DNA from: Ilex aquifolium
Taxonomy: Eukaryota > Streptophyta > Magnoliopsida > Aquifoliales > Aquifoliaceae
Direction: 5' to 3'
DNA: 64,000 bases
NCBI GenBank assembly: GCA_951799425.1
Contig: OX637392.1
Location: 57,403,593 to 57,467,592 of the forward strand
The notes beneath the pieces are model-generated. The model made no database searches. It had not been told where the DNA came from and saw only the letters and a list, made by a program, of their open reading frames with translations. Of the stretch, positions 2,975 to 55,675 are shown piece after piece; the first letter of the stretch is position 1; each line of letters starts with the position of its first letter. The position numbers were made by a program, and so were the translations under genes.

Positions 2975-4189
2975 TTAGAAAGATGCAAATGTAAATGTAA
3001 GAATGACAGCGATGACAGTTGGAACGATGATAGGATTGGTCGTTCGAGCTTTGCTATTGTTGTTGCCTGCAAAAGAACAGAAATATGCTTTGATTATGTT
3101 GTGTGTCACTACTTAGTAGGCAGTTTTTTGTATACGACAATCGGTATACCTAATCAAGGTGAAAAGTAAATGTGTTTAGCATAATTAATCAAACTAAAAC
3201 AACACAATCAAAACCATACCTGAAGGTGGTGGCAACACGCTCAGTGGTGGCGATAGGGTTGGTGGTGACGACGGGGTCAGTGGTGGCGATAGGGTTGGTG
3301 GTGACGACGGAGTCAGTGGTGGCGATAGGTTTGGTGGTGACGACGGGATCAGTGGTGGCGATAGGTTTGGTGGTGACGATGGGGTCAGTGAGGGTTGCGA
3401 TGATGGTGGTGGAGCCGGAGTATCATTATAGAAACGCCCGATCTCATATCTAAAGTTACAACTGGGTGTTAGAACTCTCCCTCCTAATTTTCCACTGCAA
3501 CATAATGGGAATTGTCCAAAAGCCTGTTTTAGGCAGTCGTTACACTGGAGTTCGGATAAATCGGGTGTACACTGCGAAAGCGCATATATTGTTTGCGAGT
3601 CAGGGCCACTAATGTTTCCAGTAGCAAACTTGAGCAAAGAATCACCTGATGAAGCTGGCTTCTTTAGCATGTCCAACAAGGTTTTCACTGCCTCATTAAA
3701 CTTATAAACGTTTGACACATTTTGAGGGTTCCACACATAAATAGCAGGACCAGTATTAACAGTGTGGAATATAGTGTTATTTGAGAACCTTATCATACAA
3801 TTATCATACCATCCCAGTGCCTCACTGTAGTTTCCACAAACTTGTGGGAGCTTACGAGCAGCATCGTTGATACAAGTGTGGCAGTTATCCAACTCAACAT
3901 CTCCACGACAAAGGGCGATTGCGTTAATTCTATCGGAGTTTTCGCCAACAGAGGAATTGTAAAAGCCGTATCTGCTGATATTGGTGGAGAGGGAGGAGAG
4001 GAGGGTGCTCTTATTTGCCTCATACGTGGGTGTAGTGTGGGTGTTGTTCTTGTTTGCCTCATAACCGCCGGCCGTGGTAACATCTTTTCCACAGACATAG
4101 CCTAGGAAATCAGGCTGGGCATTGATGAGGCCAACAAAGTTTAGGATCAGGATATGAGAATGGAAGAAAAGCAGACTCCAATACTCCAT
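2975..4189 (-). CDS. Kinase-less CRK relative: two DUF26 domains plus one membrane helix
   Basis: Two exons, 4189-3220 and 3066-2975, joined at a phase 1 GT-AG intron, give about 353 residues. In order: a signal peptide (about 1-25, ending near INAQ), DUF26-A with the C-x8-C-x2-C set near [16 protein letters not shown]26-B with CTPDLSELQCNDC, a proline-rich linker of four 12-residue repeats, and a hydrophobic helix ending FASF followed directly by a stop. A normal CRK continues here with a basic stop-transfer stretch and a kinase, and no kinase exons lie between here and the left edge. All expected ectodomain cysteines are present. The start matches the MxYW start of the paralogues. DUF26 ectodomains belong to plant surface receptors linked to stress and immunity. 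The product would be a tethered ectodomain, or a pseudogene whose large exon is still open. Expression is unknown. Confidence 0.72.
3238..3390 (-). repeat. 36-bp minisatellite coding a Pro/Ser-rich linker
   Basis: About four in-frame copies of a 12-residue unit of the type LTPSSPPTLSPP lie in the juxtamembrane linker of the 2975-4189 gene. The other paralogues have shorter, non-repetitive linkers. Repeat number is probably variable between individuals. Confidence 0.75.
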
Positions 4190-4323
4190 TATTGATCCAA
4201 GAAGATTTTAGTAGCAGAAACAGGCAGGTTGGTGATGAAGTGTGAAGAGCTAATTGGTTGTTATATGAAGTTGCAGTGATGTTATCAGTTAAGGGTATAA
4301 GAATCTCATGTCTCCATTGAACG

Positions 4324-4372
4324 TTGACGCGGTCTTCGTCGTCTTCCCTTCTAGAGATATGGACTCTTGACT
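4324..4372. promoter_or_regulatory. W-box cores upstream of the 4189 start
   Basis: TTGACG at 4324-4329 and TTGACT at 4367-4372, the latter inside GACTCTTGACTTGGAG, a block shared with the 7798 and 37184 copies. It lies about 180 bp upstream of the ATG. WRKY control is an inference from the motif. Confidence 0.45.
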
Positions 4373-5006
4373 TGGAGAATTGAAACGTTCTAATTACGTC
4401 AAGTTTTTCCGAAGAAAATAATGGTTAAAGACAAGGAAGGAAGGCAACTGGAAGTTGGTTTCCCATATTTGTCCTTATGATCGGCCTAACTCCTTAATTC
4501 CAAGACGAGCATGTTTATTCACTCTCCATTGGAGTAATGTTATTTGAACGTAATTTATTATAATTATTATATTGATTGTGAACTCCATCAAACATTGAAA
4601 CTTGATGCTAATCTAATTATTACAATGAATTTTTTTTGATTTAAATAGTATTACTCTTAATTTCCAGGCAATGAAATTATTGCCTGCAACTTCAAGATTG
4701 GGTAAATGTAATAATTTTTGTCTGTTCAATCAAGCGGTTGTTATAATTTAGTTGCTTAGGCGTTAAGTTTTTAATTTTTCTCGCTTTGTCCCAACATAAA
4801 ATGGTGATTTAATTTAGGTACCAAGATGGTCATGTGCATGCCACACGACCCAGAAAATTTTGAATGGATTTAACTCTCTAGGTGAAACTGTTATGAATTA
4901 TGCATACCCAATGAGAAATTGTCACAAAATCAACTTGTGAAACACACAAGTTGAAATTTATTTTTTTTTTTTTAAATCTAATAAAGTCGTATGTGTCAAT
5001 TATCTA
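4373..5006. other. 5' flank, no gene
   Basis: AT-rich. It holds a degraded copy of the foldback MITE at about 4735-4870, recognised by the remnant core GGTCATGTGCATG. The phrase at 4480-4530 is the empty-site counterpart of the SINE-like insertion at 18882-19043. Confidence 0.4.
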
Positions 5007-5966
5007 TCTATACTACTAATAAAAGTACTTTAAGCTGAAAAACTTTTAAATCTTTATTTTACCCTTATAAAATATTGTAAAGACTACTCTATCCTTTCGC
5101 AATTAAATATCTAAATTACCATCATGTCCTTATGTATTTAAATCTCCAAATTAACTATAACATCTATTTTAATTATATATTCTCTTTGTATAAATATTAT
5201 TTTCTATAAAACTTTTTGATTGACTATATTACCCTTAAAAAAATATGTATCATTATATTTTCAATAAATCGTTTAAAAAACTTTCAAAAACTCATAAATA
5301 TAATATTACTAATCTCGTGCAAATATAACATTATACCTATATATGTTAATCAAAAATTTTAACTCTTTTATTTCTAGGATAAAAAATAATCGTATATATA
5401 ATTTTTTAAAATCAATTTATGTTACATCAGTATAATTCTTCAGTCAAAATAAACTTTCTAAGTTGTATTATTATTTTATGTAAAAATATATATTGTAGTG
5501 TATTTTTAAGTAAAAGTTGAATTTTTTAGAATTTTAATATGCTTGAAAATATATATTATAGAGTAGTATATTAAATCTTATCCCAATTGACCTAACTAAT
5601 TCTTAATTACAGTAAGGTTTCAATGTGATTAGTATACTAACAATTACTTTTATTTTATTCAAGGAATATAAGTGAAATCCTAATCAAATGAATTTTAAAA
5701 AAATTAATTTCTCAAACATCACTAAAAAATTAATCTTAATCATAAAATTCTATAAAAATATAAGTTTCACTATTTTTTTTATAGTTAGAACAAATTTTTT
5801 TGAGAAAATACAAAGTTTTCAAAATCTTATAATAGAATATGAGCAATAAAAAATTAAGTTTGGTAAATTTAAGATGATATTTAATTTAGATACACATATA
5901 TAATATGTTTTATTAATTTTTGTGTACAAAAACTATTCACGTGCAACTCACTTGGTGCATTGCTAG
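5007..5966 (+). mobile_element. Non-autonomous Helitron
   Basis: Starts TCTATACTACTAATAAAAG and ends GGTGCATTGCTAG, with host A before and T after. That is the Helitron signature: 5' TC, 3' CTRR, insertion between A and T, no target duplication. Near the 3' end, GTGCAACTCACTTGGTGCA could form a short hairpin. There is no Rep/helicase coding capacity in 960 bp. Confidence 0.7.
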
Positions 5967-54225: not shown

Positions 54226-54555
54226 TCGTTTGGTGCGCTGAATGGAAAGTTAGAAAAAATGAACTTTTTTATGTTTGTTTGGTGCGAGGAAGAAAATGAG
54301 AGAAAAATATTTGAGATTAAAATACCAAAAATTCCCTTACATATAAAAGATCAGCATAATACAATTTATCACAAGCTCTACTGCATAATACAATTTCAGA
54401 TAACCAGTGGTATAATTATTTCCAATTTTATTCCCACATCTCAACCACTACTGCTACTTTAAGTTTGATGCAATCACTGCACCATACATTCACAACATTT
54501 TTGGATGTTTTTGTTTCTTGCTATGATGATGAGAAACTCGGTCTTTTGGCTTCCT
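54226..54555. other. 3' flank of the 55675 gene with a worn MITE edge
   Basis: GTTTGGTGCG phrases at 54230 and 54278 resemble the terminus of the 6712-7445 MITE. Positions 54280-54480 match 2700-2890 and 44280-44450. Confidence 0.4.
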
Positions 54556-54662
54556 CTACTTCCTTTTTCTTAGAAAGATACAAATGAAAACGATAAGACC
54601 AATAGCGATGACAGTAGGAATGACAGTAGTGTAGGTAGCTCGACTTTTGTTTTTGTCTTTGC
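54556..54662 (-). pseudogene. Vestigial CRK membrane exon with stop-transfer residues
   Basis: After AG, reads GKDKNKSRATYTTVIPT, a full helix and LRKRK, then a stop. If spliced in the receptor frame this would be a topologically complete membrane anchor with a five-residue basic tail, but exon 1 of this copy ends in a stop at the junction. Confidence 0.75.
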
Positions 54663-54838
54663 CTGCACAAGAACAAAATATGCTTTGATTATGTTAGGTG
54701 TCACTAGGTAGTTTTTGGTAGTTGAATTCATGGTAACAATTGCAATACATATCCGAAGTGACATTGTTTAGCATAATTAATCAAAATGTACTTGTGTTAG
54801 GAAGAAGAGACCTAAAAATAAAATAATTAAAACAATAC

Positions 54839-55675
54839 CTAGAGGTTGTGGCGGCGGCAATGTTGGTGGCAGTGGCAGTTGGGCGGCGGTGGTGGTGGAC
54901 TCTGAATATCATTATAAAAGCGTCCGATCTCATACCTAAAATTACAGCTGGGTGTTAGAATTCTCCCTCCTATTTTTCCAACACAACAAAACGGGAGTTG
55001 CCCAATAGCCCCATTAAGACAGTCGATACATTGGACCTCAGATAAATCGGGGGTACACTGTGAAAGCGCATATATTGTCTGAAAGTTGGGGCCAGGAGTG
55101 TTTCCAGTAGCAACCTTGAGCAAAGAATCACCTAATGCAGCTTGTGTCTTTAGCCTATCCAATAGGGTTCTCAGATCTTTATTAAACTGAACAACATCTG
55201 AGGCATTATTGAGGTTCCACACATACACTGCTGGACCAGTATTGACAGTGTGGAATATAGTGTTATTTGAGAACCTTATCATGCAATTATCATACCATCC
55301 CAGTGCCTCACTGTAGTTTCCACAAACTTGTGGGAGTTTACGAGCAGCGTCGTTGATACAAGTGCGACAGATATCCAACTCAACATCTCCACGACAAAGG
55401 GCGATCGCGTTAATTCGATCAGAGTTTTTGCCAACAGAGGAATTGTAAAAGCCGTATCTACTGATATTGGAGGAGAGGGAGGAGAGGAGGGTGTTCTTAT
55501 TTGCCTCATACATGGGGGTGGTGTGGGTGTTGTTCTTGTTTGCCTCATACGCACCGGCCGTAGTAATATTGAGTCCACAGACGTAGCCTAGGAAATCAGG
55601 CTGGGCATTGAGGAGGCCAACAAAGTTTAGGATGATGATATGAGAAAGGAAGAAAAGCAGAGTACAATACTCCAT
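54839..55675 (-). CDS. Secreted-type double DUF26 protein (kinase-less type A paralogue)
   Basis: 278 codons. Signal peptide to about LNAQ; DUF26-A with [28 protein letters not shown]26-B with CTPDLSEVQCIDC, FCC, PSC; all cysteines kept. The type A block is present. The linker (SPPPPPPNCHCHQHC) is read in a shifted frame relative to receptor copies and ends at TAG, which forms the last three bases of exon 1 before GTATTG. It is very similar to the ectodomain of 2975-4189 (for example the shared ARKLPQVCGNYSEALGW), so the two are recent relatives. No kinase exons lie downstream. Likely exported and disulfide-bonded; role by analogy with cysteine-rich repeat secretory proteins only. Confidence 0.75.
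   Translation of the reverse strand: MEYCTLLFFLSHIIILNFVGLLNAQPDFLGYVCGLNITTAGAYEANKNNTHTTPMYEANKNTLLSSLSSNISRYGFYNSSVGKNSDRINAIALCRGDVELDICRTCINDAARKLPQVCGNYSEALGWYDNCMIRFSNNTIFHTVNTGPAVYVWNLNNASDVVQFNKDLRTLLDRLKTQAALGDSLLKVATGNTPGPNFQTIYALSQCTPDLSEVQCIDCLNGAIGQLPFCCVGKIGGRILTPSCNFRYEIGRFYNDIQSPPPPPPNCHCHQHCRRHNL

Follow-up and report, generated by a model that had tools for sequence, protein, structure and literature searches.

The window examined here, 64,000 nucleotides of Ilex aquifolium (C2:57403593-57467592 of an 800-Mb plant genome), lies within a tandem array of CRK genes and holds four gene copies, all on the minus strand, that keep a long open ectodomain exon and have no usable kinase. 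Copies inside the window are named W, after a coordinate at or near the start codon, and those outside it g, after the last digits of the C2 position; positions without a prefix are those of the window. Exon 1 of copy 1 (W4189; 3194..4189) is open for 331 aa, with a signal-peptide-like start, two DUF26 domains and an expanded proline-rich linker. In copy 2 (W45699; 44857..45699) and copy 4 (W55675; 54839..55675), open for 280 and 278 aa, two DUF26 domains are followed by an out-of-frame linker with a TAG directly at the splice donor, and copy 3 (W49461; 48664..49470) is open for 268 aa from its first ATG, again with two DUF26 domains, and meets a stop within the linker. A sequence-only reading of the window had described long open DUF26 exons with every expected cysteine, and each of the four indeed carries two Pfam Stress-antifung/DUF26 stretches, two C-X8-C-X2-C motifs and 12-13 cysteines; their N-termini, judged by eye and not by a predictor, are hydrophobic and align with those of intact CRKs. 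The copy 1 linker (3220-3430) is enlarged by Ser-Pro-rich repeats (SPPxLSPPLxPS) resembling those of hydroxyproline-rich wall proteins; in copies 2 and 4 the linker, being out of frame, translates into a Cys/His-rich tail.

The membrane exons retain their splice acceptor in all four copies and are damaged in four different patterns, read by eye and then checked. Exon 2 of copy 1 (2975..3066, minus strand) has an open hydrophobic helix with a 1-nt deletion near its end, followed by a stop; in copy 2 (44511..44639, minus) an early stop and a 4-nt insertion break the helix; in copy 3 (48123..48220, minus) the helix is open and a 5-nt deletion is followed by a stop two residues past it; in copy 4 (54556..54662, minus) the open helix ends with a stop after FLRKRK. 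The copy 1 donor (TTCAG/GTATGG at 3224-3214) is in frame, and splicing would yield a 353-aa product that ends in the hydrophobic stretch without a cytosolic tail, its stop being position 2975, where the sequence-only reading had ended the copy. In copies 2, 3 and 4 upstream stops bar the helix, and copy 3 has in addition lost its donor (GT to CT near 48624). From these frames, stops and donors, the copies at 45699, 49470 and 55675 should encode secreted ddCRRSP-type proteins with two DUF26 domains, while copy 1 could be either secreted, if the intron is kept, or a tail-less membrane-helix protein, if it is spliced. The earlier suggestion of secreted or tethered products thus narrows to secretion for three copies and keeps both options for copy 1 only. 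A linker frameshift common to copies 2, 3 and 4 is plausible from the DNA and is not rejected on the tree (approximately unbiased, AU, test, p 0.17).

The seven CRK exons were located by tblastn across the array, and the kinase exons of all four copies proved, as had been claimed, undetected or broken. Behind copies 1 and 3 tblastn detected none; a weak exon 7 fragment (51287..51388, minus; tblastn E = 0.001) lies between copies 3 and 4, behind copy 4. Copy 2 is followed by a remnant of exons 4-7 (40779..43548, minus) in several frames, with frameshifts, four masked stops and a gap of more than 1 kb inside exon 7, and exon 3 was not detected there by tblastn. Accordingly, a kinase joined to the ectodomain, as in a CRK, is found in none of the four copies.

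Whether these exons are more than debris depends on the selection that they have experienced. Branch classes were fitted with a purpose-written codon likelihood program (GY-type, F3x4), the p values being uncorrected for the number of tests, on an alignment of 17 ectodomains drawn from 275 kb of the array (C2:57310000-57584999) and one dispersed copy at C2:49.22 Mb. A single dN/dS ratio (omega) over the whole tree is 0.52. With three classes, omega is 0.43 on the kinase-less tips, 0.75 on the tips of four damaged paralogues and 0.48 on the background, which includes the ectodomain-only g564 as well as g393836, g572786 and the C2:49.22 copy with a damaged kinase or linker. Neutrality of the kinase-less class is rejected (2dlnL 31.2, p 2e-8); the class does not differ from the background (p 0.48) and differs from the damaged tips (p 0.005). 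This result stands when the signal peptide is omitted and on three topologies (p 5e-8, 6e-10, 5e-9), and on a constrained tree omega over all branches within the four-copy clade is 0.43 (p 7e-10). Taken singly against 1, the tips of W55675 (0.24, p=1.6e-5), W45699 (0.38, p=0.0012) and W4189 (0.48, p=0.021) are constrained; g564 has a tip omega of 0.26. The Ka/Ks comparison that the sequence-only reading had proposed thus argues against plain pseudogenes for the class, copy 3 alone being indistinguishable from 1. In copy 2, the kinase remnant has an omega of 0.81, which differs from the background (p 1e-4) and not from 1 (p 0.44), as against 0.38 in the ectodomain.

The same reading had held that the ectodomain exons were spared relative to the rest, and this is borne out by two calculations. 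In a neutral simulation of stops alone, the joint probability that all four frames stay open is ~8e-7 if whole tips are neutral, 5e-4 for half of each tip, 0.017 for a quarter and 0.19 for a tenth; the lesions, counted after the data had been seen, number 5 in ~524 bp of membrane exon and 0 in 3081 bp of ectodomain (P = 6e-5). Counting copies with an open ectodomain and a dead kinase would be a weak argument if used alone, given that three broken ectodomains of the array adjoin stop-free kinases and that one kinase piece lacks an ectodomain. Because modules are broken both ways, the case rests on omega and on the age of the loss, and age matters because a tip omega below 1 could reflect the time before the kinase was lost.

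The age can be approached through a sequence behind the membrane exon that is common to all four copies (2721..2911 in copy 1, 44197..44530 in copy 2, 47922..48120 in copy 3 and 54202..54560 in copy 4, all minus strand) and is lacking in the CRKs of the array. When 331 nt of copy 4 (54530-54200) are used as a query, a genome search finds no locus besides the four copies that matches its first 161 nt (in copies 1 and 3 the match starts at nt 62); beyond that, from nt 162, dispersed places match as well, and this part is therefore probably a repeat. CRK homology in copies 2-4 runs out, by eye, at roughly the last 10 nt of exon 2, copy 1 being deleted there, and at W45699 it restarts only past exon 3. 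Between copies, the shared stretch has diverged by a Kimura two-parameter distance (K2P) of 0.25-0.31, and its alignments contain 6-10 gaps, counting those at the ends, per 170-324 aligned bases; for the ectodomains, synonymous divergence (dS) is 0.32-0.44, and a single one-codon gap is all that separates them besides the unaligned 5' end of copy 3. By these figures the kinase-less state would cover most of each tip, provided that the shared stretch was inherited with the loss; intron-1 and upstream divergences are too gappy for dating. Purifying selection on the four ectodomain exons is supported by omega, and on the same proviso it would have acted mostly after the kinase was lost.

Because the post-membrane sequence is common to the four copies and part of it occurs at no other locus, a single old loss followed by duplication is favoured, and four independent losses were set aside. 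Most likely, the kinase was cut off once, before duplication, and the picture of a snapshot of receptors turning in parallel gives way to that of one old event. We propose that a kinase-less lineage branched from the type A CRKs of the array when, as the shared breakpoint suggests, the extreme end of exon 2, its splice donor and exon 3 gave way to unrelated sequence, so that the kinase could no longer be joined. What remained would have been a signal peptide, two DUF26 domains and a membrane helix, possibly with a short basic tail: a tethered, PDLP-like ancestor. This unit would then have duplicated, and linker slippage in three copies and separate damage to the membrane exon in four, lesions which are seen and whose order is our reconstruction, would have led to secreted ddCRRSPs whose ectodomain frame, to judge by omega, has been retained by selection. 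The four exons would accordingly represent one kinase-less lineage with a selected ectodomain and probably working secreted proteins, a reading to which we assign a probability of about two in three. To go by published relatives, OsRMC and AFP1, the most likely role would be apoplastic, in the binding of carbohydrate or glycoprotein.

Several observations weigh against this reading. The damaged control tips are also rejected as neutral (0.75, p 0.038), which serves as a warning that a tip omega mixes time before and after damage. Copy 3, with a tip omega of 0.65 (p=0.16) and no donor, is compatible with neutrality, and in copy 2 equality of kinase and ectodomain omega is rejected barely significantly (p 0.045, on a 12-point grid). 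A 100% split separates the copy 2 kinase remnant from the type A kinases, and the remnant may hence derive from a different kinase module. The ectodomain tree does not recover the four copies as a clade, with support of 30-46 at the deciding nodes and of 82 and 97 for two pairs, although monophyly, when forced, is not rejected (AU p 0.58). Ectodomains and kinases recombine in the array, so that the shared 3' sequence could have spread by recombination, and the region upstream of copy 1 has diverged less from two of the three type A CRKs compared (K2P 0.36, 0.44) than from copies 2, 3 and 4 (0.70-0.82). Finally, everything is read from the sequence of one genome.

Other explanations can be measured against the same evidence. 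The copies might be plain pseudogenes whose kinases were lost recently and whose ectodomain exons have simply been spared so far, in line with the near-neutral tip of copy 3, with the broken state of several neighbouring loci and with the simulation, in which four open frames are unremarkable if only a tenth of each tip is neutral. The class omega of 0.43, the concentration of lesions in the membrane exon and the K2P of 0.25-0.31 in the shared sequence, which places the loss in a less recent past if it was inherited with the loss, render this improbable. It is similarly unlikely that the copies encode tethered PDLP-like or receptor-like proteins, two DUF26 domains and a helix with a minimal tail, serving as co-receptors of intact CRKs: the open helices with a stop at or just past them in copies 1, 3 and 4, the kept acceptors and the in-frame 353-aa product of copy 1 would suit such proteins, but linkers out of frame or stopped ahead of the membrane exon in copies 2, 3 and 4, the missing donor of copy 3 and the broken helix of copy 2 mean that the tethered layout applies to no more than copy 1 and the common ancestor.

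Intact CRKs could also have kept repairing the ectodomain frames by gene conversion while the kinase-less copies were themselves under no selection. Conversion is reported among tandem CRKs of the variable group (vCRKs) in PMC6368629, exchange between ectodomains and kinases is visible in this array, and the longest identical tract (41-57 nt) beats nearly all shuffles in 4 of the 12 pairings between a kinase-less copy and a type A CRK (P 0.0045-0.018). This test is ambiguous because conserved sites imitate conversion: two of the 12 pairs that involve a distant CRK give small P values as well (W55675-W62919, 0.004; W55675-g497652, 0.0075), a hint that conserved sites are at least part of the cause. 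As dS between the four copies and type A CRKs (0.40-0.56) exceeds that among the four, and four damaged paralogues of the array were left unrepaired, conversion is a very unlikely source of the open frames. There is also a slim chance that the proline linker of CCN triplets, between ectodomain and membrane helix, acts as an evolutionary switch, one slip turning a membrane receptor into a soluble form with an unchanged binding face that is kept as a decoy, co-ligand or buffer for neighbouring CRKs. This predicts out-of-frame linkers, which are seen, with frames read by eye, in copies 2, 3 and 4 and in the CRK at C2:49.22 Mb, the other exons of which have no stops.

The birth of secreted double-DUF26 proteins from CRKs has been published (PMC6368629, PMC9521807), and for this reason the locus adds a new and well-preserved case to a process already described. 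Rice OsRMC is reported to derive from the kinase OsCBMIP-K by truncation of the membrane and kinase domains, and it binds the same module as its parent (PMC9521807), which may serve as a precedent of sorts for the decoy idea. Like OsRMC, the four copies have what by eye resembles a signal peptide, two DUF26 domains and no kinase; unlike it, they are still followed by traces of the membrane exon and, in one case, of the kinase. Copy 1, moreover, may be membrane-bound, and secretion is here a prediction. Fungal enzymes or mannosylated proteins are bound by published secreted DUF26 proteins (PMC9521807; PMC10128019), and one such protein promotes rhizobial attachment (PMC12537019). With vCRKs, as described in PMC6368629, the copies share the ectodomain, the tandem arrangement and an exon plan of one ectodomain, one membrane and five kinase exons; they differ in having no usable kinase and, in three of the four, an out-of-frame or stopped linker, and the variable-group label is applied here without comparison to reference sequences.

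The likeness to PDLPs lies in the plan of two DUF26 domains, helix and short tail, which the putative ancestor and copy 1 resemble. The best match by sequence in PDB is 6gre, annotated as cysteine-rich repeat secretory protein 2, which we take to be the PDLP5 ectodomain. No copy has the PDLP layout of two DUF26 domains, helix and short tail in one frame, three stopping before the helix and copy 1 lacking the tail; moreover, the four exons lie among tandem CRKs, which are also their nearest relatives in the genome, whereas PDLPs are the most conserved class, of the alpha group (PMC6368629). The route from CRK to secreted DUF26 protein is known from the comparison of clades, and here a single place still displays the cut, what is left of a kinase, the membrane exons in their broken state and the ectodomain that was kept. 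Selection can act on exons that look like leftovers of dead receptors, and pipelines that discard them as pseudogenes may therefore lose real genes.

Across the array, kinase loss and ectodomain loss both occur. The 17 aligned ectodomains comprise 13 that are open and four that are damaged (W37184, W18441, g368173 and g358956); 13 kinases were aligned. Five of the 13 open ectodomains belong to CRKs that could be script-assembled through seven exons (W62919, g400639, g384031, g497652 and g562298), with splice sites picked automatically and some junctions doubtful, and five have no usable kinase, namely the four window copies and g564 (C2:57564668-57563943), an ectodomain-only gene of a different subclade outside the window with a stop right behind the second DUF26. 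At g572786, whose ectodomain is open, assembly stopped at exon 3, matched only in part, and exon 4 has a stop. Conversely, three of the four damaged ectodomains (W18441, g368173 and g358956) adjoin stop-free kinase exons, and for g350383, a membrane-plus-kinase piece, tblastn detected no ectodomain; modules are thus lost in both directions. An array shedding its kinases, as first proposed, is therefore a one-sided description.

The closest assembled type A receptors, g400639 and g384031, both left of the window, share 79% protein identity with W55675; the CRK at 58934..62919 (minus strand), of another ectodomain subclade, reaches only 58%. This CRK, for which the sequence-only reading had suggested that the four might act as decoys or co-ligands, is thus not their nearest relative, and the present data show no link between it and them. 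The seven exons of this CRK are stop-free, and its script assembly gives 689 aa from an ATG at 62913, with a doubtful exon 2-3 junction. The damaged type A ectodomain exon W37184 (36440..37184, minus), with a frameshift and a stop, belongs to the four control tips. The gene g393836, very closely related to g400639, has an open ectodomain and a frame break in kinase exon 6 (C2:57388666-57388517), where its assembly stopped; this is possibly a fresh kinase loss. The dispersed CRK (C2:49223000-49229999) has an ectodomain sister to that of W62919 (95% protein identity) and a kinase sister to that of g350383 (100% support); its kinase exons are stop-free, and its linker is, by eye, out of frame with the membrane exon. 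Another CRK, at 19666-11489, is mosaic: its upstream part (19666-18738) is of type A (87-93% to g393836/g400639), as is its membrane-plus-kinase part (14962-11489; 92% to g393836), and the ectodomain between them (18724-16308) is 90-98% identical to g562298, apparently a type A gene that had another ectodomain cassette swapped in. An insertion of ~1 kb (about 17983-16950), rich in GTAACGG-type repeats at both ends and with CAC flanks, splits the ectodomain exon of this gene and looks like a DNA transposon; the kinase exons remain stop-free.

Genome-wide, at least 142 DUF26 domain matches were found, and CRK-like kinase exon 5 was listed with 150 of 1312 candidates scored. DUF26 loci right of C2:57585000 and other arrays (C3, C4, C2:48.4 Mb) are covered in search tables only. 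Both alignments omit the window fragments 7798-7727, 46221-46165 and 11085-10921, the fragments at C2:57474297, 57533492 and 57319736, the divergent DUF26 loci C2:57581279, 57327 kb and 57321 kb, and the divergent kinase C2:57504089. At C4:44183076-44226624, six double-DUF26 open frames have no CRK-like kinase exon 5 nearby among the 150 scored of 1312 candidates; this may be an older secreted array. Within the window, a lone membrane-exon fragment (23715..24031, minus) matches copy 1 at 98.5% identity along 137 bp, with the same 1-nt deletion. A Copia-type retrotransposon, named by eye, occupies 25762-30540 (open pieces 26467-30416) between two 216-bp repeats that are 97% identical, and further Copia-like gene pieces, also recognized by eye, lie at 25241-25810, 30931-31422 and 33570-34118.

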